A stretch of DNA of 40,172 nt from a virus: positions 1 to 40,172 of IMG/VR virus record IMGVR_UViG_3300020446_000024; one strand, written 5' to 3'. Below the pieces are notes generated by a model. The model was given only the letters and a program-made list of their open reading frames with translations. It was not told where the DNA came from and did no database searches. Shown here piece after piece: positions 643 through 25,846 of the stretch. The position numbers and the translations under genes are program-made. Each line of letters opens with the position of its first letter. Positions within the stretch are counted from its first letter, which is position 1.

Positions 643-2553
643 ATGAAAGGTACACTATTTTCAGCAGATTTTGTAATCGATGAATCATCAAATCTTAGAT
701 TACTAGAATTAAATACAGATACCGCATTTGTAAGTGTTGGTTTGTATAATCATTTTGATTTCACCGACTTTTTCAACTTGCTATCAAGTAATGGTATAAC
801 AGAAATGGCTGTTATACATAAACATTTCCAAAATAATTTTGTAGAACACTTAGAGCAAGCAGTAGCATCTGATGCAACTTTTATTACGAAGTTTGTTAAA
901 GTAAAAGAGTTCGCTAATACAGTTTACCCTACTGTTATAACTGATGAATCAAATAGATTTATTTTAAGATTAGCATATGATGAAAACGCAGTTTTTGATT
1001 CTACATATTGTAAAGATAGAGTAAATGTTCTAAAATTATTTAACGAAAATAGTGGAGGAACAAGCGTACCAGAAGCTTACTTTAGTAGTAGTGATGGAGT
1101 TATAAATACACTAACATCATCTATAAATAACAACGAAAGATATCCAGATATAGTTTCAAAACATAAGACACAATCACCACAACCATTAGTATTCAAAAAG
1201 TTTGGAGATGGGGTATTAGCTGAATCAAGCTCAGCAGATTTGTATTCAGATTATTTAAATAATTATTTAGATAAAGAAAATCTTTATATTGAAAAATTTC
1301 ACACATCACCAACTACAATAAGTGATGGTGTGGCTAAAAGTATTAGAACTTTCCAAATAGTATATGGTTCTAATTTGGACACACTACAATTAGGTGCATA
1401 CAAAATAGATTCAATGTTTGGATTACCATCCGATATCTCACAAGATACTACTGAAATGCTTTATAACATACCAGCTAAACACTACTTCGAATATACCACT
1501 AACTTTATGAAGGATAATTATTTTGAGGGGTTATTAGATAGTGAAGCATATAAAGAAGTAAATGATACATATACAAATATTGTAGATGCTAGAGTAAGTG
1601 GTTCAGTTAAATCGTATCATGTATCGGGTTCACCTGATACAGATAACAGAGAAATGTACGCTTCTTGGTCTTTTACTGGTAATACTTTAACAGATTCATT
1701 TCCAACCGAATCTGTAATTTATGCGGTAGAATCTCAATCATTTGAATATCCAGGTTTAATAGAAATAAACTTAGGTGATGGAAGTGATGCAATATATTGT
1801 GGTACACAAAAATCATTTTTAACATATAACACATCCTCAAACGTATGGAGTTATAAAGAAGCACATCAGCTAACATCATCTGTAGATTTCTTAACAAATG
1901 AATCAGGTAGCGCTGTTCCCATATCATCATCAAACTATGCTATATTAGAAAATCATACCGATAAACAATTAGTGAGAATAGATGTTGAAGATACTGATAC
2001 ATATTTTGTTAGTTCATCAGAATCAGTAGTAACTCACAACTTTCACTTTGGATGGAGGCACCCTGGTGGAGGTACTTGTTTCGCAGCTGGAACAAAAATT
2101 TCATTAGAAAATGGTGATACAAAAAATATAGAAGATATAGTAATAGGTGATGAAGTATTGGGTTGGGATGGTGAAGATATTGGAGTTGGGGTAGTAACAG
2201 CTATAGACCATAGGCATACTGTAGCTTCTCATGCTGAAGCTTGTGAGAGATTAGGAGATAAGCCATCACTATATACAATTAACAATACTGGTATAGAGTT
2301 CACACCAGAACATCCATTCCTTACAAAAGAAGGTTGGAAATCATTAGTACCTGAAATCAGACAAGAACCATATAAATCAGAAGCACCTGCTAGAGAATTA
2401 GAAGTTGGTGATTTTATTAATGTAAATGGAGATTGGGAAGAAATAAAAGAAATAAAAGTTGTAAGGTCAAATGAAGAAGAACCAGTCTACAACTTTACAG
2501 TTGATAAGTTACATTCTTACATAGCAAACGGGATAATAGTACACAATAAATAA
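643..2553 (+). CDS. Large protein with C-terminal Hint (intein-like) domain
   Basis: This 636-residue protein has two parts. Residues 1-478 have no function I can name; the first 30 residues (KGTLFSADFV ... LRLLELNTDTA) recall a family seen in marine phage genomes and faintly recall ATP-grasp proteins, and the middle is Ser/Thr-rich like the virion proteins here. Residues 479-636 form a Hint domain: Cys479 opens CFAAGTKI after a GGGT linker, the block-B motif TPEH is at 554-557, and the end is HSYIANGIIVHN plus one Lys (624-636). Hint domains catalyse N-S acyl shift, and hence cleavage or splicing, at their first Cys and last Asn. Here only Lys636 follows Asn635, so classical splicing of a C-terminal extein is not possible. 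A late-type promoter 18 bases upstream suggests virion expression. Confidence 0.75.
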   Translation: MKGTLFSADFVIDESSNLRLLELNTDTAFVSVGLYNHFDFTDFFNLLSSNGITEMAVIHKHFQNNFVEHLEQAVASDATFITKFVKVKEFANTVYPTVITDESNRFILRLAYDENAVFDSTYCKDRVNVLKLFNENSGGTSVPEAYFSSSDGVINTLTSSINNNERYPDIVSKHKTQSPQPLVFKKFGDGVLAESSSADLYSDYLNNYLDKENLYIEKFHTSPTTISDGVAKSIRTFQIVYGSNLDTLQLGAYKIDSMFGLPSDISQDTTEMLYNIPAKHYFEYTTNFMKDNYFEGLLDSEAYKEVNDTYTNIVDARVSGSVKSYHVSGSPDTDNREMYASWSFTGNTLTDSFPTESVIYAVESQSFEYPGLIEINLGDGSDAIYCGTQKSFLTYNTSSNVWSYKEAHQLTSSVDFLTNESGSAVPISSSNYAILENHTDKQLVRIDVEDTDTYFVSSSESVVTHNFHFGWRHPGGGTCFAAGTKISLENGDTKNIEDIVIGDEVLGWDGEDIGVGVVTAIDHRHTVASHAEACERLGDKPSLYTINNTGIEFTPEHPFLTKEGWKSLVPEIRQEPYKSEAPARELEVGDFINVNGDWEEIKEIKVVRSNEEEPVYNFTVDKLHSYIANGIIVHNK

Positions 2554-2555
2554 TT

Positions 2556-2693
2556 ATGGGTAAAGTAGATATATACAAAAGACAATCAACATCTGTTACT
2601 AGAACAACGACTGCATTATCAGGTGATGAGCAGACTAAAGTAAATAATATCCTTACAAATTTCTTTAGCTACTTCAAAGCAAAACATACATAG
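2556..2693 (+). CDS. Small hypothetical protein, 45 aa
   Basis: An ATG two bases after the stop of the Hint protein opens a 45-residue frame ending at TAG 2691-2693. The product starts MGKVDIYKRQSTSVTRTTT and ends in an aromatic and basic stretch (NFFSYFKAKHT). It has no signal peptide or membrane segment. Immediate coupling to the Hint gene and a new promoter directly after its stop support it as the last gene of that transcription unit. The function is unknown, and it may simply be a small virion or chaperone partner of the upstream protein. Confidence 0.5.
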   Translation: MGKVDIYKRQSTSVTRTTTALSGDEQTKVNNILTNFFSYFKAKHT

Positions 2694-2720: not shown

Positions 2721-3281
2721 ATGGATAAAGAACAATTTTACCAAATGCGTCAGCATAGGGATAATTGGGATGGTGACTACAAAAGAGATACAGATTTTTA
2801 TTTTAAAGTAGTTGATAACAATAACCCACTTCATATTAGAGATAATAATTCTGATATTAAATTTATCTGTAAATCAATAAACAAAGAATTAGAAGATTGG
2901 CAAGATAAACCAACATTAGAAACTGCTCTAAAAAGATTACACACCATATCATCACTATTTTTATTTTTCCACAAAGATTTTAATAAAGCAATAGGTTGGG
3001 GTTGGTTTTCCAATGTTTTTACATACGATTGGATAAACGAAGTACACCCACTACCAACAGAAAACTCTTCTTACTTTGGAGGTGCATATATTCAAAAAAA
3101 TTTAGGGCTACCACCAAATGCAGGAATACAGTTATATTATCAAGCATTCTCATATTTGTTTTCAAAGAAAGAATGGATATATGGTTATGCGGATAAATGG
3201 AACAGAGCTTCAATTCTAATCTGTCATAGATTAGTACATGAGCGATATAATTTTATAAAGGATTATGGGAGAGAATATTAA
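2721..3281 (+). CDS. Hypothetical protein, 186 aa
   Basis: The protein has 186 residues and is not recognised. It is rich in aromatic residues, with a striking centre: KAIGWGWFSNVFTYDWINEVHPLP followed after a short gap by SSYFGGAYI. The C-terminal part is mixed helical and basic (YADKWNRASILICHRLVHERY). It has no signal peptide, membrane span or nucleotide-binding loop. The last 17 bases overlap the start of phoH, so the two are probably co-translated. The layout of an aromatic core with a GGAYI-like strand could fit an acyltransferase-like fold, but no diagnostic motif is present and no function is proposed. Confidence 0.6.
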   Translation: MDKEQFYQMRQHRDNWDGDYKRDTDFYFKVVDNNNPLHIRDNNSDIKFICKSINKELEDWQDKPTLETALKRLHTISSLFLFFHKDFNKAIGWGWFSNVFTYDWINEVHPLPTENSSYFGGAYIQKNLGLPPNAGIQLYYQAFSYLFSKKEWIYGYADKWNRASILICHRLVHERYNFIKDYGREY

Positions 3282-3927
3282 CAAAGTACCACCAAAAGGT
3301 AAGGTAAGGTTTTCAATAACACTATCGGAAGAACAAAAGATGGCAAAGACAAATATCTTATACCATCCATACAATTTTATTATGGGTAAAGCAGGTAGTG
3401 GTAAAACACTATTAGCAGTACAAATAGCATTGGATATGTTTTTTACTCGTAAGATAAATCAAATCATTATAACAAGACCAACAGTATCAAACGAAGATAA
3501 TGGATATCTACCAGGTTCACTTGATGAAAAGATGGAGCCTTGGTTAGTACCAATTCGTTCTAATATGAGAAAAGTTTACAATAAACCTAATATATTACAG
3601 AAGATGGAATCAGATGAAAATATTGAATTAGTATCACTATCTCACTTTAGAGGTAGAACATTTGATAACGCTTGTGTGATTGTAGATGAGTTTCAGAATC
3701 TTACTAAACAACAACTTGGAATGGTGTTAGGTAGATTAGGTAAACAATCAACTATGATTCTTACTGGTGACCCACAACAGATTGATTTAAAATTTCCAAA
3801 TGATTCAGCTATACATGAAGTACCGAAAGTAAAAGAATCAAAGTATGCATATGCGGTAAATCTTGTAGATAATCATAGACATGAAGCATTAGATGAAATA
3901 CTAAGGTTGTTACAACAATACGCATGA
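3265..3927 (+). CDS. phoH: PhoH-like ATPase
   Basis: The protein is 220 residues long and belongs to the PhoH family of P-loop ATPases, which are related to superfamily 1 helicases and common in marine phages. Walker A is GKAGSGKT (41-48), Walker B is VIVDEFQN (138-145), and the sensor-like TGDPQQ is at 167-172. The ITRP patch and GYLPGSLDEKMEPW segment (69-93) are typical of the family. The role in infection is unsettled; links to phosphate stress and RNA metabolism have been proposed. It overlaps the previous gene by 17 bases and the next by an ATGA junction, so it sits inside a translationally coupled set. The assignment is firm; the physiological role is not. Confidence 0.93.
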   Translation: MGENINKVPPKGKVRFSITLSEEQKMAKTNILYHPYNFIMGKAGSGKTLLAVQIALDMFFTRKINQIIITRPTVSNEDNGYLPGSLDEKMEPWLVPIRSNMRKVYNKPNILQKMESDENIELVSLSHFRGRTFDNACVIVDEFQNLTKQQLGMVLGRLGKQSTMILTGDPQQIDLKFPNDSAIHEVPKVKESKYAYAVNLVDNHRHEALDEILRLLQQYA

Positions 3928-8707: not shown

Positions 8708-9658
8708 ATGAATTTAGGATACGCTTGTATTAATATGACCTTATCAGGTCAGAAACCAAAAGTTACAACCAATCGTAGTATGATTAAAAAAACCTTTACT
8801 GAAAAGGGTGTTACTTATGCTGGTGAGTTAGGTATGTTAAACGCTGCCGATTTAGGTAGAATCCTTAGATGGAATGTAGAGAACGGAATCAAAGTATTCC
8901 GATTATCATCGGAGTTTTTTCCGTGGGCATCAGAATATAAGTTCGAAGATTTACCACAATATCTTAGAATCAAAACTTTATTAGCTGGTGCTGGTAATTA
9001 TGCTCAATCAAATGGTATAAGGTTGACTTGTCATCCAGGTCCATTCAATGTATTGGTATCACCACACAAACACGTAGTTGATAATACAATTACTGATTTG
9101 AGAATACATGGTGAGATATTCGATATGTTAGGGTTGGAGCGTTCACCTTACAACAAAATCAATATTCATTGTAATGGTGTATATGGTGATAAACAATCCG
9201 CTATGGATAGATTCTGTAAGAACTTTGAGTTACTACCTGAATCAGTTCAAACTCGTTTGACTGTTGAGAATGATGATAAGGCATCTATGTACTCAGTAAA
9301 AGATTTGATGTACATACATGAAAGGATTGGTATTCCTATTGTGTTTGATTATCACCACCACAAATTCTGTACAGGTGATTTATCGGAGCAAGAAGCATTG
9401 GAGTTAGCAATCTCCACTTGGCCTGAGGGTATCAAACCAATCGTACACTACTCAGAATCAAAAGCTTTACATGAAGGTAATGAATCTTTAAAACCACAAG
9501 CTCATTCAGATTATATAAATGACTTACCTGATTTGTATGGTAACGATGTAGATGTTATGGTAGAAGCAAAAGCAAAAGAATTATCCATACTTCCATTCAT
9601 TAAATCAAACAAGTGTGAGTATAGTGGATTACTAAGTACAAGTAGTTATGCGAGCTAA
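8708..9658 (+). CDS. uvsE: UV-damage endonuclease (UVDE)
   Basis: This 316-residue TIM-barrel nuclease nicks DNA 5' to UV photoproducts and starts alternative excision repair. Candidate metal ligands appear in family order: His109 (TCHPGPF), His154 (IHCNGVYGDK), Glu187 (VENDD), Asp214 and His217 (FDYHHHKF), His247 (IVHYSES), His266 and Glu287. The start LGYACIN is typical. T4 uses the unrelated DenV for this task, so this is a functional substitute, useful to a sunlit-water phage. It has its own host-type promoter, so repair is probably an early function. The gene overlaps the next small gene by 11 bases. Confidence 0.93.
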   Translation: MNLGYACINMTLSGQKPKVTTNRSMIKKTFTEKGVTYAGELGMLNAADLGRILRWNVENGIKVFRLSSEFFPWASEYKFEDLPQYLRIKTLLAGAGNYAQSNGIRLTCHPGPFNVLVSPHKHVVDNTITDLRIHGEIFDMLGLERSPYNKINIHCNGVYGDKQSAMDRFCKNFELLPESVQTRLTVENDDKASMYSVKDLMYIHERIGIPIVFDYHHHKFCTGDLSEQEALELAISTWPEGIKPIVHYSESKALHEGNESLKPQAHSDYINDLPDLYGNDVDVMVEAKAKELSILPFIKSNKCEYSGLLSTSSYAS

Positions 9659-9994: not shown

Positions 9995-10760
9995 ATATCG
10001 TAAATTTTGGTATAACGATGATTGTATTTTAGATACTAAGTACAATGTTGTATTATATGAAAATGATAAAGGGTGGGAAAAATATGAGAAATGGAAATCT
10101 AAATATTCTGATTTAGAAAACGAAATTCAACAAGAAAAAGAAGCACTACTAAAATGGAATGGAGGAAAACCTACAGAAGTTAATGGGATTACAAGATATT
10201 ATCATCAAAACGGAAAAATATACAAGTATGAATCAGATGATGTTAAATTAGAATATAACATTGATGGTATATTAATTAAAAAAATAGATGAAAAATCTGA
10301 AGTACACTACTCAGCTGAGCTTCCAGATAAAATATACGAATCGTATAAAAAAAATAATTTAGTAATTGAAGAATATTTTGATAAAGAATATATTTACAAA
10401 TCATCTCTACAAAGAAATAATATAAAAGTTGTAAGAAAAAAACTACCAAATAGAAAAACCTCTGAAAAGAAAACTTACGTTGATGATGTTTTGGTAAAAC
10501 ACACAACTTACTATACAAATACCAATAGTGTAAATAGTCAAATCTATAATGACTATTATACTGAATATTTTACAAATAAAAAGTTAAGAGCTGAGGGATA
10601 TTTGGTTGATGATAAACCTGATGGGCATTGGAAGTTTTATCATATCAATGGTGAATTGGAATCTGAGCATTGGTTTATTAAAGGTAAATTTAAACCTAAG
10701 AGTAGGTCATCTGTTTACTTTGAAAATACAGAATTAAATTTTAATATAAAGCATGGTTAG
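9987..10760 (+). CDS. MORN-repeat protein (YwqK-like)
   Basis: The 257-residue product carries degenerate MORN-type repeats. The clearest are near the C-terminus (YFTNKKLRAEGYLVDDKPDGHWKFY and HINGELESEHWF, about 195-235), and a weaker copy is at about 60-90 (NGITRYYHQNGKIYKYE). Such repeats form beta-hairpin ribbons and occur in bacterial YwqK-like proteins of unclear role. An N-terminal coiled or charged region precedes them. It is cytoplasmic by sequence, with no signal. It overlaps the small membrane protein by 8 bases and the glycosyltransferase by 8, so it belongs to the uvsE-to-glycan operon. A binding or scaffolding role is inferred. Confidence 0.65.
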   Translation: MARYRKFWYNDDCILDTKYNVVLYENDKGWEKYEKWKSKYSDLENEIQQEKEALLKWNGGKPTEVNGITRYYHQNGKIYKYESDDVKLEYNIDGILIKKIDEKSEVHYSAELPDKIYESYKKNNLVIEEYFDKEYIYKSSLQRNNIKVVRKKLPNRKTSEKKTYVDDVLVKHTTYYTNTNSVNSQIYNDYYTEYFTNKKLRAEGYLVDDKPDGHWKFYHINGELESEHWFIKGKFKPKSRSSVYFENTELNFNIKHG

Positions 10761-11637
10761 TATTATTGTTCCATTTGCAGTGAAAGATAACAATGATGTA
10801 AATTTACATAATTGGCCAAACCAAGATATAGGTTATTATATTTACACTACAATACAATGTATTAAAAATATTAACAACACTTTAAATTTTGAAAAAGAAA
10901 TTATATTAGTTGATAATACTAATAATTTTCCAAAGATTAAAATGCCAAATCTCAAAATAATAAAAGGATGGCAATATCTTTCTGAGAGTAAATTAAAATC
11001 TAAAAAGAATTTTGATAAGTACAAAATTGATAATTTCAAAAACTTATCTATGTGGGTATCGATGGCTTATAATTTAGGTATAGAAAAAGCTAAAGGTGAT
11101 TATATAATATTACAACACAATGATATACATTATCACCAAAATGCAATTCCAAATTTAATTTATGAGTTAGAACTAAATGCATATGGATATATCTCAGTTG
11201 ATTATAAAAAGTTAAGTCTATCTGGTTATTTAGGACAAAAAGAAACAATCGATAATATATTAGATGATATTGAAGTTGGATATTCCGATGGTGGTTATAT
11301 AAAAACAAAAAAGTTGGGGTTTGCAGATTGTTATTTCTTTTTATGTAGGAAAGAATTCTTTGATGACTACACTGTAGATTGGAAATATGCTGATTCAAAT
11401 CATGGAGCTACAATTAAATGTTTACAGAACGATATACCATTTTTACATTTAGGTCCATATTATGATAATCCAAACTTTGAAACAAATAATAAACTAAGAA
11501 CATATTACTATAAGAATTGGAAGTTCATAACCCATTTAAAAGGTGGGTTTTCTGAAAACAAATTATCATATAAAAACCCAAAGACAGTAGAATATACAGA
11601 AGATATTGATAAATATATAAGTTTAATGCATGATTGA
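10753..11637 (+). CDS. Family 2-like glycosyltransferase
   Basis: This 294-residue GT-A-fold enzyme starts MVSIIVPFAV, followed by EIILVDNT (49-56) and MAYNLGIEKAKGDYIILQHNDI (104-125), the order of nucleotide-sugar-binding elements in GT2 enzymes. The usual DxD is replaced by HND (122-124), so the metal site is modified. The C-terminal half has an ADCYFFLCRKEFF acceptor-side strand. The substrate is unknown. It is immediately followed by a second glycosyltransferase (8-base overlap), which suggests a two-step sugar addition to a phage or host glycan or to modified DNA. Confidence 0.75.
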   Translation: MVSIIVPFAVKDNNDVNLHNWPNQDIGYYIYTTIQCIKNINNTLNFEKEIILVDNTNNFPKIKMPNLKIIKGWQYLSESKLKSKKNFDKYKIDNFKNLSMWVSMAYNLGIEKAKGDYIILQHNDIHYHQNAIPNLIYELELNAYGYISVDYKKLSLSGYLGQKETIDNILDDIEVGYSDGGYIKTKKLGFADCYFFLCRKEFFDDYTVDWKYADSNHGATIKCLQNDIPFLHLGPYYDNPNFETNNKLRTYYYKNWKFITHLKGGFSENKLSYKNPKTVEYTEDIDKYISLMHD

Positions 11638-12307: not shown

Positions 12308-12738
12308 ATAATTTATTTATATACACACTTGCTAAAGTTAACAATGGATTAACAAAATATTCTATTAATAGTTCTTGTACAGAATCAAGTATAAAAGAAT
12401 TAGTAAGTGTAATAAATAAAGAAACTTATAAAAAAGTTGTTTTAGTTTGTAGAAGTGAAAATGAACCACATGCTGAACAATTTCCTAAAAAAGAATATAT
12501 AGAGTATATAAAACAAAATTCAAATAAAGAAGTAAAAATATTTTATCAAGACCCATTTCCATCGGTAGTACCAAACTTTTCAAATGAGTATATGGTAATT
12601 AGATTCGGATTTGATTCAGGTTGTGAGTTTGATAAATCAGTTAGTGAAGTATATAAAACTGATTTAAATGATGGTGTTAATACAATACTCTATAATAAAA
12701 ATAAGTACATTAATCTAAATAGAAAATCAATTTTATGA
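12295..12738 (+). CDS. Hypothetical protein, 147 aa
   Basis: This 147-residue protein lies between the GT25-like enzyme and ThyA, overlapping both. It has one plausible alpha/beta core (YKKVVLVCRSENEPHAEQF, about 45-63, then VKIFYQDPFPSVVPNF) resembling a nucleotide-sugar or phosphatase-type fold, but no complete motif. It has no signal peptide. A copy of TATTTATA at 12314 is inside its coding region and is not counted as a promoter. The function is unknown; the operon suggests a link to the glycan genes. Confidence 0.6.
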   Translation: MGLLDNLFIYTLAKVNNGLTKYSINSSCTESSIKELVSVINKETYKKVVLVCRSENEPHAEQFPKKEYIEYIKQNSNKEVKIFYQDPFPSVVPNFSNEYMVIRFGFDSGCEFDKSVSEVYKTDLNDGVNTILYNKNKYINLNRKSIL

Positions 12739-13619
12739 ACATAGTAGATAAACAATATCAAGGGTTTCTTAGAAAACTTATAATGTATGGAACAGAAAAA
12801 GGAGATAGAACCAATACAGGCACACTATCTTATTTTGGTGATACATTCAGACACAATATGGCTGATGGATTTCCACTCCTTACAACAAAGAAAATGGCAG
12901 TGAAAGCAATGGTTACAGAATTAAAATGGTTTCTTAAAGGAGATTCACATATCAAATATTTGTTAGATAATAACTGCCACATTTGGGATGGTGATGCTTA
13001 TAAAAAATATCAAAGAGTAGTTGATTGGGATTTAGATGAACCATTATCAAAGGAAGAGTTTATTGATAAAGTTCAGAACGATAAAGATTATTGGCACTAT
13101 GGATTGCTAGGTCCAATCTATGGAACGCAATGGAGGAAGTGGGGTAGTAAGCAATATATTGACCAAATAAAAGAACTAATAGAAAACTTAAAAACTAATC
13201 CGAATAGTAGAAGGCATTTAGTATCAGCTTGGAATGTGGAGGATTTAGAAAAGATGACTCTACCACCTTGCCACTATTCATTTCAATGTTATGTAGCAGA
13301 TGGTAAGTTATCACTAATGTGGAATCAAAGAAGTGTAGATGTATTCTTAGGATTACCATTCAATATAGCATCATATGGATTACTCCTATTACTATTATGT
13401 GAAGAGACAGGATATGAACCAGGTGAACTGATTGGTTCATTGGGTGATGTACATTTATATAAAAATCATTTGGAACAAGCACATGAACAAATAAAAAGAG
13501 AACCCAAAAAATTACCAAAAATTAAATTATCTAATATTCATATATTAGAGGGTGAGTTTGATTATGAGATTTTAGATTATGAATCACATCCAACAATTAA
13601 AGCACCATTAAACAATTAG
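12735..13619 (+). CDS. thyA: Thymidylate synthase ThyA
   Basis: This 294-residue enzyme converts dUMP to dTMP with methylene-tetrahydrofolate. Visible elements are RTNTG (25-29), the phosphate-binding NSRR (157-160), the catalytic Cys179 in LPPCHYSFQCYV, and MWNQRSVDVFLGLPFNIASY (195-214) with Asp202 and Asn210. The length is slightly above the bacterial average because of an insert near residues 95-120. It starts in the ATGA overlap with the previous gene. It supplies dTMP for phage DNA in an AT-rich genome and works with the deoxynucleotidase at 4928. The family assignment is certain. Confidence 0.97.
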   Translation: MNIVDKQYQGFLRKLIMYGTEKGDRTNTGTLSYFGDTFRHNMADGFPLLTTKKMAVKAMVTELKWFLKGDSHIKYLLDNNCHIWDGDAYKKYQRVVDWDLDEPLSKEEFIDKVQNDKDYWHYGLLGPIYGTQWRKWGSKQYIDQIKELIENLKTNPNSRRHLVSAWNVEDLEKMTLPPCHYSFQCYVADGKLSLMWNQRSVDVFLGLPFNIASYGLLLLLLCEETGYEPGELIGSLGDVHLYKNHLEQAHEQIKREPKKLPKIKLSNIHILEGEFDYEILDYESHPTIKAPLNN

Positions 13620-15038: not shown

Positions 15039-15271
15039 ATGTAAATATTAAACCCTTAGTAGAAAAACATCCTAACGATGCAGAGTTAGGTGCGAAAGTT
15101 AGAGAAATATATTGGGATAGAATAGATAAGATTAACCAATATAATAAATGGGATGGCACAATCTATGAATCACCTGATGGTGGTGAAACTATTTATGAAA
15201 GACCATTTGGTTCTGATATATCAGAAAGAAAATTAGTTAAAGATAAATCACAATTAAACTTATTTGAATGA
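15035..15271 (+). CDS. Small hypothetical protein, 78 aa
   Basis: The 78-residue charged protein sits between the methyltransferase-like gene and peptide deformylase, with ATGA overlaps on both sides. It contains short repeats of the TIYESPDGGETIYERPFG type (residues 42-59), two TIYE units in tandem, suggesting a beta-hairpin. It has no signal or membrane segment. The function is unknown. Confidence 0.65.
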   Translation: MNVNIKPLVEKHPNDAELGAKVREIYWDRIDKINQYNKWDGTIYESPDGGETIYERPFGSDISERKLVKDKSQLNLFE

Positions 15272-15888
15272 GAAACATAGTTACAGATAAAATAAAATTA
15301 CAAAAGGTAGTAACAGATTTACCTAAAAATAAATCTGAAGAAGATGTTATATCAGCAGCATTGTTTACCGCATTAGAAAAAGAAAAAGGATTTGGATTAT
15401 CAGCAAACCAAATCGGTGTGGATAAAAGAATGTGTGTGATTAACATCAAACAACCTATGGTGTTGGTAAATCCAAAAATTGTTAAAAGAAGTGAAGAAGC
15501 AGTTCAGTATATTGAGAGTTGTTTATCTCTTCCCAAAACAATGAGAAAACCAAAGAACACAGTTAGAAGTATTTCTATTACTGTTGAAACAGATAACTTA
15601 GGTACAGTTGAGTTTGGACCTGATGAAGCTGATAAGATAGGTTCAGAAGGGCACAATTACTTTGCTGATGAAGGATTGTTAGAGTGTGTTGTTGCTCAGC
15701 ATGAGATAGACCATTTAGATGGGATATTAATTACTGATTCTGTAAGAGCATATAATATCCAAAGAGTATCTGAAAAGAAATTTGGTAGAAATGATAAAGT
15801 GATGGTTAAATCTCCTGATGGTGATACTGAGTTTATGAAGTACAAAAAAGCAGTACCATTATTAGAGAGAGGGTATGAAATTGTATAA
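15268..15888 (+). CDS. def: Peptide deformylase
   Basis: This 206-residue metalloenzyme removes the N-formyl group from nascent proteins. The three signatures are present: GFGLSANQIG (41-50), ESCLSLP (83-89) with metal ligand Cys85, and QHEIDHLDGIL (144-154) with His145 and His149. The usual EGCLS is ESCLS here, a small change beside the metal Cys. Phage deformylases are common in marine viruses and may favour processing of phage or photosystem proteins; no photosynthesis gene is present, so the benefit here is open. It starts in an ATGA overlap with the previous gene. Confidence 0.93.
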   Translation: MRNIVTDKIKLQKVVTDLPKNKSEEDVISAALFTALEKEKGFGLSANQIGVDKRMCVINIKQPMVLVNPKIVKRSEEAVQYIESCLSLPKTMRKPKNTVRSISITVETDNLGTVEFGPDEADKIGSEGHNYFADEGLLECVVAQHEIDHLDGILITDSVRAYNIQRVSEKKFGRNDKVMVKSPDGDTEFMKYKKAVPLLERGYEIV

Positions 15889-17306: not shown

Positions 17307-18038
17307 ATGCCCAGACCGAGAAGAAAAAAATCCAAAATGTATTTTGGTACGCCTGCTCAAGATGCTATTATAGCATACAACAAATGTAAAGACCCTAAAG
17401 AGAGGAATAAAATATACAATGAAGGTATAAAATATCCTTTCGCAAAATTAGCTGAAAATGTTTTAAATACATTTAAGTTTACTTACTTTGATGTACCAAA
17501 ATCAGATATCAAAAAAGAAGTAGTATCTGCTATGGTAGAAAAAATACATATGTACAAAGAAGGTAAAGGAAAAGCATTTTCATACTTTACAATTATTGCA
17601 AAAAACTATTTGATTCTAAATAATAATGGTAATTATAAAAGATGGCAAAAAAACGCATTAATATCTGAAATGCCACAAACTTGGAATCCACAAAACGATT
17701 ATTATGAAGCTCAACAAAATGAAGAATATTCTGAGTTTAGAAAAATAATGTTAGAATATTGGGATAAAAATCTTACAGTTGTATTTACAAAGAAAAGAGA
17801 TATTCAAATAGCAGATGCGGTTTTAGAATTATTTAGAAGAGCAGATTATATAGAAAACTTTAATAAAAAACATTTATATCTACTTATTAGAGAAATGACA
17901 GATTGTAAAACTCACTACATCACAAAAGTTGTAAATGTAATGAAGCAACATCAAAAGAAAATGTTAAATTCGTTTTTAGAAGGTGAAGTGATAGATGACA
18001 ATCCAAATCAGTTTTGGAATGAAGAAGAACATTTATGA
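17307..18038 (+). CDS. 55: gp55-like late sigma factor
   Basis: The 243-residue protein resembles T4 gp55, the small sigma factor that directs host RNA polymerase to late promoters. After a basic start (PRPRRKKSK), a conserved core of about residues 40-120 (AKLAENVLNTFKF, DIKKEVVSAMVEKIHMY, KAFSYFTIIAKNYLILNNN) matches the sigma region-2-like part seen in marine T4-like relatives. The C-terminal NQFWNEEEHL is acidic and aromatic, as in the clamp-binding tail of gp55. The gp33 and gp45 partners are not in this window. It overlaps the next gene by 44 bases (or 20 with the later start). The nine TATTTATA sites are its inferred targets. Confidence 0.7.
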   Translation: MPRPRRKKSKMYFGTPAQDAIIAYNKCKDPKERNKIYNEGIKYPFAKLAENVLNTFKFTYFDVPKSDIKKEVVSAMVEKIHMYKEGKGKAFSYFTIIAKNYLILNNNGNYKRWQKNALISEMPQTWNPQNDYYEAQQNEEYSEFRKIMLEYWDKNLTVVFTKKRDIQIADAVLELFRRADYIENFNKKHLYLLIREMTDCKTHYITKVVNVMKQHQKKMLNSFLEGEVIDDNPNQFWNEEEHL

Positions 18039-19707
18039 TGATTATATCATTGGAATCTCTTTTGGATTTCATGATTCAGCAGTTGCACTAATACAAAATG
18101 GTAAAGTTTTAAACGCAGTAGAAGAAGAAAGATTTACTGGTATAAAACACGATAGTAGTTTTCCAATAAATTCAATTAATTGGATTTTAAAAAATAACAA
18201 AATTGTAGGTAAACAAATATCAGCCGTATGTTATTATGAAAATCCAAATCTTAAAAACGATAGAGATTGGAAATCTTATTGGAAATACTTTTGGAAGAAC
18301 CCATTTAAGTTTCCAAAGAAAACAAACCCGTTAGAACACTTTGATTACATATTTCCTAATGCAAAAGTTTTCATTGGTAATCATCACTTATCTCATTTAG
18401 CATATTCATACTTTACCTCAGATTTTGATGAATCAGCTATACTATCAGTAGATGGTGTTGGTGAATGGGATACTACTGTATTAGCGACTGGTAAAGATAA
18501 TATAATAAAAAGACATAGTGAAGTAGTGTATCCACACTCATTAGGATTACTTTATTCTACAATTACTGCTTTCTTAGGATTCAAACCAAATGAAGGTGAG
18601 TATAAAGTTATGGGATTAGCTCCATATGGTACTCATCTATTTCATCATAAAAAGTTTGATGAACTAATAAAAGAAACGGAGGATGGATTTGAACTAAATA
18701 TGGAATACTTCTCTTATCATTATTCCGATAAAATTATGTTCAATACAAAACTATCTAAACTATTTGGAATACCAAATAGATTATCCGAAGAACCAATAAA
18801 TGATATTCATAAAAATATATCAGCAGCTTTACAATACACATATGAAAAGCATTTCTTTAGATTACTAAATAAGCTGTATAAAAAAACAAAATCTAAAAAC
18901 TTATGTTTAAGTGGTGGGTGTGCATACAATGGAACTGCTAATGGTAAGATTCAAGATAGAACACCATTTAAAAACATTTGGATACCACCAGCTCCATCTG
19001 ATGCTGGTTCTGCTATTGGAGCAGCTCTAAACTATTGGAATCATATCACAAATGATAGAAAGGAAAATAAAACACCATTCTTAGGCCCATCTGAAAAACT
19101 ATTAGATATAGTAAAGATTGTAAAAGATAACGAAGATAAGATATTCTACGAAGCATTATCTGATGAGGAGTTGTTACCAAAAGTAGCTAAACTTATATCA
19201 GAAGGAAATATTATTGGTTGGGTTAGAGGTCAATTAGAGTTCGGTGCAAGAGCATTAGGTAATCGTTCTATCTTAGCAGACCCAAGAGACCCACAAATGA
19301 AAAAGAGAGTAAATATGGTTGTAAAGAAAAGAGAAGGTTTTAGACCATTTGCTCCTATAGTTTGTTACGAAGATATGAAAAGATTCTTTACTCCAAATGT
19401 AGAGATACCTTATATGAATCAAATAGTAAAGGTAAAACAAAATCACCAAACTAAATTACCAGCTATCACACACACCGATGGTTCAGCAAGAGTACAAACA
19501 CTTAGAGAAGATTTTAATCCTAAGATGTATAAACTTCTAAAAGAATATCAGAAGATTACAAAGTATCCAATACTACTAAACACATCATTCAATCTCAAAG
19601 ACCAAACTATGGTTAGAGATGCACAAGAAGCAATTGATACATTTATGAATTGTGATATGGATTTCTTAGTGATTGATAATATTTTTATTTCTAAGAAAAT
19701 AATCTAA
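17995..19707 (+). CDS. NodU/CmcH-family carbamoyltransferase
   Basis: The 570-residue enzyme has the family's two parts: an ASKHA-like N-terminal half with GISFGFHDSAVAL (20-32), GNHHLSHLAYSYF (128-140), the DGVGEWDT strand (153-160) and LSGGCAYN; and a YrdC-like C-terminal part from about residue 400 with GARALGNRSILADPRDP and FRPFAPIV. It forms carbamoyl-adenylate and transfers the carbamoyl group to a hydroxyl, usually of a sugar or natural product. Two in-frame starts exist (17995 and 18019); the later one has a shorter overlap with the sigma gene. With the sugar genes upstream, decoration of a glycan or modified base is the likeliest role. It ends one base before a late-type promoter. 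Confidence 0.9.
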   Translation: MTIQISFGMKKNIYDDYIIGISFGFHDSAVALIQNGKVLNAVEEERFTGIKHDSSFPINSINWILKNNKIVGKQISAVCYYENPNLKNDRDWKSYWKYFWKNPFKFPKKTNPLEHFDYIFPNAKVFIGNHHLSHLAYSYFTSDFDESAILSVDGVGEWDTTVLATGKDNIIKRHSEVVYPHSLGLLYSTITAFLGFKPNEGEYKVMGLAPYGTHLFHHKKFDELIKETEDGFELNMEYFSYHYSDKIMFNTKLSKLFGIPNRLSEEPINDIHKNISAALQYTYEKHFFRLLNKLYKKTKSKNLCLSGGCAYNGTANGKIQDRTPFKNIWIPPAPSDAGSAIGAALNYWNHITNDRKENKTPFLGPSEKLLDIVKIVKDNEDKIFYEALSDEELLPKVAKLISEGNIIGWVRGQLEFGARALGNRSILADPRDPQMKKRVNMVVKKREGFRPFAPIVCYEDMKRFFTPNVEIPYMNQIVKVKQNHQTKLPAITHTDGSARVQTLREDFNPKMYKLLKEYQKITKYPILLNTSFNLKDQTMVRDAQEAIDTFMNCDMDFLVIDNIFISKKII

Positions 19708-23794: not shown

Positions 23795-25846
23795 ATGGCA
23801 TTAAATAATCAAATAAAAAGTTTTAAGGATAAAGGTAGAGATATTAAATACCTTAACAAAGATTTTGTTGATTTTAGAACCAACTTAATTGAATTCGCTA
23901 AAACTTATTTTCCAACAACATTTAATGATTTTAACGAATCATCACCAGGTATGATGTTTATTGAAATGGCATCTTATGTCGGTGATGTATTGGGATATTA
24001 TATAGATGATACATTAAAAGAATCATTACTTACTACCTCCGAAGATAGAGAAAATATATTTGAACTATCTAAAATGATGGGGTATAGAGCCAAAGTTACA
24101 ACCCCAGCTACAACAAAATTAAGTGTATTTCAATTGATACCATCAAGAAGATTAACAAATCCTATTTCATCAGGTGATTTAGCATTTGAACCTGATACTG
24201 ATTATTACCTAAGAGTAAAAGAAGGTATGGAGTTAGATGCTGATGGTGTACAATTTAGAACGACAGAACTATTAGATTTCGCAGATGCAGAAGATAGAGA
24301 AATCACTGTATATGAAAGAGATATAGATACTAATAATCCCAAATTTTATTTAGTAAAAAAATTCGTTGATGTAATATCAGCTACAGAAAAACAAATAGAA
24401 ATTACATTTAGTAATACACAAGAAGAATATGCAAAAATTGATATACCTGATACAAATATAATTGACATATTCGATGTTAGAGATGCTAACAATAACAGAT
24501 ACTACAAAGTTCCATACTTAGGGCAAGAGATGGTTTATGTAGAATATTCAAATACTGAAGCACAAGATAAAGATTTATTTCAGTTTAGAGATTCAGTAGC
24601 ATCAATTCTTAAATTAATTAAAACACCAAGAAGATTTAAAGTAGTAACAAATCCAGATGGTACAACTACTATTCAGTTTGGTAGTGGTGATGGTGGTAAA
24701 AATGATGAACTACTAATCCCTACATTTAAAAATGTTGGGTTAGGGTTAAACAATTCTATAGATAAGTTAGGAGCATCATTTGACCCATCAAACTTTTTAC
24801 TAACTAAATCATATGGACAATCACCAAAGAATACTACAATGACTGTAAAATATTTAGTTGGTGGTGGTGTAGAATCAAATGTAGCACAAAATACAATACA
24901 AAGAATTACCAAAGTTGAATTTGATGAAGATTTATCAGCATTTGGTCAATCAGAGAGAAATCTTTATTCGACTGTTAAGAACTCATTAGCAGTAGATAAT
25001 GAACAACCAGCAACTGGTGGTAGGGGAGCAGAAACATTAGAAGAGATTAGAGAGAATGCTATAGCTAACTTCGGTTCACAAAACAGAGCAGTAACATCTA
25101 AGGATTATCAAGTAAGAGCATTATCAATGCCACCTAAGTTTGGTAATATCACAAAAGCATTTTGTGCAGCTGATGGTCAATTGGATGATAACTCACCAGC
25201 TTCTATACTAGCTTCACCAACCGCACTAAACGAATTTTCTAAGTTGGTACAAGATTTACAAGCTGATGGTAAGAATACTGATGAACAAATAAAAACACAA
25301 GTTTCAAAATTTTTATCAAATAAAAAATCAAATGTAAAAGAAAAGAATAATCCATTTGCAGTAAACTTATATGTGTTAGGATATGATTCTAATAAAAAAC
25401 TAACATCTCTTAATAGAGCAGTCAAAGAAAATCTAAAAACATATATGAATGAATTTAGAATGTTGACCGATGGTGTAAATCTTTTAGATGGATTTATTAT
25501 TAATATAGGTTTAGATTTTGAAATTAGAGTTTATAGAGATTATAATAAAAGAGAAGTATTAACAAATTGTATTACGGCTCTTAAAGATTATTTTGAAATA
25601 GATAAATGGACATTCAATATGCCAATCAATATTGGTGAAGTTGAAATGTTAATAGGAAATATTGAAGGAGTACAATCCGTAGTTAAAACAGAGTTTAAAA
25701 ACTTATGTGGAGGTACTTCAGGTTATTCACCAAATTCATATGATGTTGTTGGTGCAACGAAGAATAAACAAATTTATCCTTCATTAGACCCATCAATATT
25801 TGAATTTAAATTTCCTGATAAGGATATAAGAGGGAGAGTAGTATAA
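23795..25846 (+). CDS. 6: gp6-like baseplate wedge protein
   Basis: The 683-residue protein corresponds to T4 gp6 / P2 J, the main wedge subunit. The N-terminal DFRTNLIEFAKTYFPTTFNDFNESSPGMMFIEMASYVGDVLGYYIDD (about residues 28-73) is a strong signature. A J-like central region follows (GGRGAETLEEIRENAIANFGSQNRAVTSKDY, about 407-437) and a C-terminal AINIGLDF-type strand plus GEVEMLIGNIEGVQSV. The length matches T4 gp6 (about 660). It is followed by a TAATG coupling. Confidence 0.95.
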   Translation: MALNNQIKSFKDKGRDIKYLNKDFVDFRTNLIEFAKTYFPTTFNDFNESSPGMMFIEMASYVGDVLGYYIDDTLKESLLTTSEDRENIFELSKMMGYRAKVTTPATTKLSVFQLIPSRRLTNPISSGDLAFEPDTDYYLRVKEGMELDADGVQFRTTELLDFADAEDREITVYERDIDTNNPKFYLVKKFVDVISATEKQIEITFSNTQEEYAKIDIPDTNIIDIFDVRDANNNRYYKVPYLGQEMVYVEYSNTEAQDKDLFQFRDSVASILKLIKTPRRFKVVTNPDGTTTIQFGSGDGGKNDELLIPTFKNVGLGLNNSIDKLGASFDPSNFLLTKSYGQSPKNTTMTVKYLVGGGVESNVAQNTIQRITKVEFDEDLSAFGQSERNLYSTVKNSLAVDNEQPATGGRGAETLEEIRENAIANFGSQNRAVTSKDYQVRALSMPPKFGNITKAFCAADGQLDDNSPASILASPTALNEFSKLVQDLQADGKNTDEQIKTQVSKFLSNKKSNVKEKNNPFAVNLYVLGYDSNKKLTSLNRAVKENLKTYMNEFRMLTDGVNLLDGFIINIGLDFEIRVYRDYNKREVLTNCITALKDYFEIDKWTFNMPINIGEVEMLIGNIEGVQSVVKTEFKNLCGGTSGYSPNSYDVVGATKNKQIYPSLDPSIFEFKFPDKDIRGRVV

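Follow-up and report, generated by a model that had tools for sequence, protein, structure and literature searches.

An ATP-grasp-like protein of uncultured phages with a tandem Hint tail and a conserved lysine end

Closest described systems

Inteins have Cys, Ser or Thr at the +1 position, and this mark of the C-extein of class 1 inteins is absent from the Hint domain described here, which is followed by Lys and then by the stop codon. In type A BIL domains the thioester formed at Cys1 and the cyclisation of Asn mostly lead to cleavage, and ligation results if the thioester is attacked by the amine that has been set free (PMC4031507); cleavage and ligation by these domains are also covered in PMC7664689. 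BIL2, from the BUBL1 locus of Tetrahymena (PDB 6y75/6tmm), reportedly passes the partner at its N-terminus on to the amine of a lysine, forming isopeptide bonds, and serves as an ATP-independent ubiquitin-dispensing platform (PMC8616854).

We analyzed a stretch of viral DNA of 40,172 nucleotides (IMG/VR record IMGVR_UViG_3300020446_000024, here called the window), in which one gene encodes a marine phage protein made of domains of known kinds, GSP_synth-like ATP-grasp and A-type-BIL-like Hint, in a new combination, that is, with a tandem Hint tail and a conserved lysine end (Table 1). The terminal Hint domain has the sequence features of A-type BILs such as the Clostridium thermocellum BIL (PDB 2lwy): Cys1, the block-B Thr-x-x-His (T554-H557), the C-terminal His-Asn and no Cys, Ser or Thr at +1; its site outside conserved enzyme cores and its variable position are shared as well. 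The phage family differs in that tandem copies are carried by an ATP-grasp-like ligase, the chain mostly stops one Lys past the Asn, and a dead Hint stands ahead of the live Hint.

The profile of the family matched BIL2 (4e-22) and the C. thermocellum BIL (1e-18) ahead of inteins, and the fold search with the terminal Hint yielded the same ranking, with 6y75 and 2lwy as the best matches; the nearest neighbors in sequence and fold are BILs, not inteins or the Hog domain. BIL2 differs in being eukaryotic and flanked by ubiquitin-like domains, whereas no folded domain follows the Hint of the window. A comparison with Hedgehog proteins, made in the sequence-only reading of this DNA, fits less well than that with A-type BILs, which lead both searches: Hog shares the Hint fold and the N-S acyl shift at Cys, but its match is much weaker (1at0 at rank 23), and the phage protein has a terminal His-Asn and no sterol-recognition region, the chain ending at residue 636.

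Table 1. Features of the ligase-Hint locus and auxiliary genes of the window
Feature	Position	Strand	Remarks	Basis
Ligase-Hint ORF	643-2553	+	636 aa; stop codon 2551-2553	
N-terminal ATP-grasp-like domain	643-1503	+	aa 1-287 (~290); predicted amide ligase	AF2 models, fold and profile matches, invariant columns
Hint1, degenerate Hint	1528-2040	+	aa ~296-466; C-terminal His-Asn at 2035-2040	Alignment, second stretch of TIGR01443, second ATP-grasp family
Spacer between Hint1 and terminal Hint	2041-2076	+	12 residues, FHFGWRHPGGGT	Alignment, tree, pLDDT
Terminal Hint domain, A-type BIL-like	2077-2547	+	C479-N635	Pfam/NCBIfam; fold and profile matches to BILs
Codon of C479	starts at 2077	+		
T554-P-E-H557	2302-2313	+		
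V633-H634-N635-K636	2539-2550	+		
Lys636	2548-2550	+	Sole residue beyond the catalytic Asn	Sequence; K/R in relatives
45-aa partner protein	2556-2693	+	Directly downstream of the ligase-Hint gene; starts two bases past its stop	
PhoH	3265-3927		Auxiliary gene	
UvdE UV endonuclease	8708-9658		Auxiliary gene	
Family 2 glycosyltransferase	10753-11637		Auxiliary gene	
Thymidylate synthase	12735-13619		Auxiliary gene	
Peptide deformylase	15268-15888		Auxiliary gene	
NodU-type carbamoyltransferase	17995-19707		Auxiliary gene	

The gene and its two kinds of domain

The scores that identify the terminal domain as a Hint lie far beyond the chance level. In Pfam, both Intein_splicing (9.2e-10) and Hom_end_hint (9.2e-8) match the 636-residue protein above their curated cut-offs, as does TIGR01443 (intein C-terminal region; 3.8e-10), which was found in two stretches of the protein, while TIGR01445 reaches 26.8 bits with a cut-off of 24.5. 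These matches bear out the full catalytic set claimed from the letters alone (C479, TPEH at 554-557 and HN at 634-635); the single residue past the final Asn, with the stop codon directly after it, and the 45-aa gene two bases downstream were likewise confirmed. Another contig, of 103 kb (L001, IMGVR_UViG_3300030012_003189), carries this locus with DNA that is 99.9% identical along 7.55 kb, so an assembly accident is unlikely. The AlphaFold model of the full protein, built with 51 relatives, has a mean pLDDT of 87.9. Beyond what had been noticed earlier, the same protein contains a degenerate Hint upstream and an ATP-grasp-like N-terminal domain.

No Pfam or PHROG family accounts for residues 1-478. 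The AlphaFold model of residues 1-298 (47 relatives, mean pLDDT 86.7) had 11 matches below 1e-3 in the PDB, all of the GSS/GspS superfamily type, including YgiC (8e-7), YjfC, homoglutathione synthetase, yeast glutathione synthase and nematode glutathione-synthetase-like effectors; in a viral library the best match was 0.07. The TM-score to YgiC is about 0.43, hence the likeness is at the level of the fold class and not close. YgiC, YjfC and homoglutathione synthetase share with the phage domain the motif D-(x12)-E-x-N-x-D at identical spacing: the phage S-A-D9-(x12)-E22-L-N24-T-D26-T aligns with R-L-D102-(x12)-E115-N-N117-A-D119-T of YgiC. The predicted metal ligands D9, E22 and N24 (the Mg-binding D..E.N motif) are invariant in 47 relatives, and so are R109, E114, K173, K186 and R235. 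When the profile of the domain was compared with one built on three E. coli proteins (YgiC, YjfC and Gss), the score was 40 (E ~1e-4), while 20 column-shuffled controls scored at most 20.6.

The phage domain differs from these enzymes in being shorter, fused to Hint domains and below the Pfam cut-off: no family member passes the curated cut-off of GSP_synth (PF03738), the best value being 0.053 in one of 47 members, and this family has no match in the window record. Moreover, the Arg preceding the metal Asp in GspS/YgiC (R100 of YgiC) is replaced by Ser7, and therefore the substrate probably differs. From these observations we infer an ATP-grasp domain of the glutathionylspermidine-synthetase / YgiC / homoglutathione-synthetase type, a predicted amide ligase; YgiC and YjfC carry the RefSeq name peptide-spermidine ligase. 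A fungal enzyme without detectable sequence identity to characterized ATP-grasp enzymes was recognized through the same fold neighbors and is an amide-forming ATP-grasp (PMC12568646). Named cultured phages yielded no relative of the N-terminal domain of the family member L005, and no cellular relative was found in 97 genomes of one phylum, in a search run without a positive control.

These results change the description of the protein, which had been called virion-like. Its N-terminal domain resembles GSP_synth/glutathione-synthetase ATP-grasp ligases, and the gene lies amid auxiliary genes; we rejected the assignment as a virion protein, the N-terminal domain having no match to a structural family of Pfam or PHROG and the only recognized structural gene of the window, encoding a baseplate wedge protein (23795-25846), being far downstream. 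Apart from the 45-aa gene, the neighbors in the family are variable auxiliary genes (those of the window are listed in Table 1), and no tRNA genes were found at positions 1-40172 of the window. The protein may still associate with the virion. Since its layout recurs in dozens of related phages and in unrelated phage proteins, the Hint tail is more likely a functional module that cleaves or conjugates itself than a part of a virion protein.

Tandem Hint units, lysine end and partner gene

A search of IMG/VR with the N-terminal domain identified at least 80 loci, and the Hint units were counted in 54 distinct complete proteins among the matches listed. Three of these had no Cys-type Hint after Hint1, 21 had one, 24 had two and six had three; that is, 51 of the 54 carry one to three Cys-type Hints in tandem beyond Hint1, and the three relatives without any indicate that the protein can do without this tail. 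On the ligase tree the copy number changed at least six times. In the alignment of 51 sequences C479 and the C-terminal His-Asn are nearly invariant, and block B is present in most Cys-type Hints.

Hint1 ends in THN (464-466) and, as the alignment with relatives shows, has lost Cys1 and the block-B His, while N466 is invariant and H465 is conserved in more than 90% of the 51 aligned sequences. When Hint1 and the terminal Hint were compared directly by BLAST, no match appeared; what identified Hint1 was the motif at its C-terminus, the place it takes in the alignment and a second ATP-grasp-like family, where the equivalent place reads TFIEGT and matches Pfam Hom_end_hint, which supports the identity of Hint1 as a Hint. 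An extra Hint occupies the place of the spacer FHFGWRHPGGGT in the four full-length relatives of the initial alignment as well as in all other members of the window clade. Since this closest clade of seven otherwise has two Cys-type Hints, the window protein most simply lost the middle one; within the spacer, residues 470-476 are the only segment of three or more residues with pLDDT below 50 in the full-protein model. In eight relatives (L051, L062, L074, L077, L085, L086, L090 and L095) the Asn of Hint1 directly abuts the next Cys1 (gap 0), so that one peptide bond is both the C-terminal scissile bond of Hint1 and the N-terminal one of Hint2. The last Hint of L046, L051, L061, L086, L087, L089, L096 and L109 has no His-Asn, ends in ...SGLGDN... 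and resembles B-type BILs.

Among the matches listed, 43 relatives are of the HN type; the residue after HN of the last Hint is K in 40 and R in three of them, and the chain ends exactly at HN-K in 36. At unit-to-unit junctions, the +1 residue is R in about 19-21 cases, K in seven and another residue in eight (K versus R, last unit against internal junctions: Fisher p 3e-9, relatedness not being corrected for), and after Hint1 neither K nor R was ever found as the next residue in the family. The DNA pattern HN[FY][FY]A-x4-VHN, which leaves the +1 residue unbiased, had 66 closed-frame matches outside the family, of which 53 had C, S or T as the +1 residue and ten had K.

The recurrence of VHNK endings, stated in the earlier reading, was borne out by IMG/VR: H-x-[FY]-[FY]-A-x4-VHNK followed by a stop was found in 60 stretches, about 40 belonging to this family, ten to the second ATP-grasp-like family and ten to unrelated proteins. 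In the second phage family (L237, L239, L280) the D..E.N motif and the dead Hint1 are accompanied by a terminal LVHNK Hint. Unrelated phage proteins (L166, L236, L259, L251, L265, L283, L249) end in a (L/C)VHNK Hint, some with a Gly-rich GGSGG before Cys1. Two contigs of cellular MAGs (L110 and L111; Omnitrophota, Woesearchaeota) also encode Hint domains followed by HN-K, one after a type IV pilin-like N-terminus and the other after a secreted-looking TD-repeat linker.

A partner gene of 45-50 codons, with the pattern YK... KH[LST] in the product, was found in 53 loci, nearly all of those compared, and mostly starts 0-32 bp past the stop. It is kept in three loci without Cys-type Hints (L103-L105), which ties it to the ligase rather than to these Hints, and the second ATP-grasp-like family has no comparable downstream mini-ORF, so the partner belongs to the first family only. 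The 45-aa peptide is the first candidate substrate.

Possible chemistry of the tail

The conserved residues, the models and the analogy with BILs incline us, with slightly more confidence than doubt, to a GSP_synth-type ATP-grasp amide ligase with a self-processing tail composed of a dead Hint and one live A-type-BIL-like Hint. C479 would attack the T478-C479 bond, giving a thioester, and N635 would cyclise, freeing Lys636; by the precedent of type A BILs, water or an amine could then resolve the thioester, and the ligase part of 478 residues would leave the Hint, in some cases with Lys or another amine at its new C-terminus. Cleavage after N466 of Hint1 may also occur, and in the gap-0 relatives the cyclisation of the Hint1 Asn could resolve the Hint2 thioester. 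The earlier statement that splicing is impossible is too strong: the mechanism proposed for type A BILs has the residue after Asn, once its amine is free, attack the thioester at Cys1 (PMC4031507), and in the phage protein this residue is a single Lys. Against our reading stand the distant fold match of the N-terminal domain, its Pfam score below the cut-off, the Ser in place of Arg, the relatives without Cys-type Hints and the lack of an obvious use for freeing one lysine by Asn cyclisation.

In a rival reading Lys636 itself would be the acyl acceptor, either prior to Asn cyclisation, through its epsilon-amine, or later, as free Lys, so that a one-residue extein would give a lysine-capped ligase part, possibly with an isopeptide bond. 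The prevalence of K at the last unit (40/43) against the R-rich internal junctions (~K7:R21) agrees with this, as do the isopeptide bonds to lysine made by BIL2, the closest solved relative (PMC8616854), and the free amine used in type A BIL ligation (PMC4031507). We nevertheless find it unlikely, as R at internal junctions offers no equivalent nucleophile, Lys is frequent at protein C-termini generally, and the acceptor Lys of BIL2 sits in the adjacent ubiquitin-like domain rather than being demonstrated at +1. Its fullest version, in which the ligase and a string of Hints with a +1 Lys acceptor would make a lysine-capped or branched protein without C, S or T, possibly tagging or releasing the ligase in step with the 45-aa partner, appears rather improbable. 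The thioester might instead hand the ligase part over to a separate molecule that offers an amine, such as the 45-aa partner, a host protein or a polyamine. BIL2 as a ubiquitin-dispensing platform (PMC8616854), the polyamine amides formed in E. coli by enzymes of the N-domain type (by the annotation of YgiC/YjfC) and the partner gene in nearly all loci point in this direction; with no conserved Gly-rich tail before Cys1, a variable -1 residue (P, S, T, N, A, F) and the partner gene present also where Cys-type Hints are missing, such conjugation seems improbable.

The Hint units could also be intein relics or structural add-ons that stay uncleaved in the native protein, which would explain the variable copy number, the degenerate unit and the relatives with other endings or none. 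However, Cys1, the block-B His, HN and K or R at +1 are conserved across ligase domains that are about 35-50% identical, and a relic would lose these residues as Hint1 lost its Cys1; we regard this, too, as unlikely. An ordinary class 1 intein, or a half of a split intein with its C-extein in trans, would have the same Hint fold and both terminal motifs, yet Lys and a stop stand where 53 of the 66 non-family pattern matches have C, S or T, and no intein half was seen nearby, which makes this explanation very improbable.

In the open full-text literature, which mostly excludes subscription papers, we found no description of a ligase-Hint phage protein. The analysis replaces what would have been annotated as 'virion protein with intein'. 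In the reading given here, one protein that is widespread in uncultured phages would link two amide-making routes, Hint thioesters and activation by an ATP-grasp enzyme, and the 45-aa partner offers a concrete candidate substrate. Hint modules ending in HN-K-stop are found on many unrelated phage proteins. The role of lysine as acceptor is an attractive but unproved reading, and, if the tail works, the family would provide a compact natural test of whether a Hint domain can use lysine as its +1 residue.
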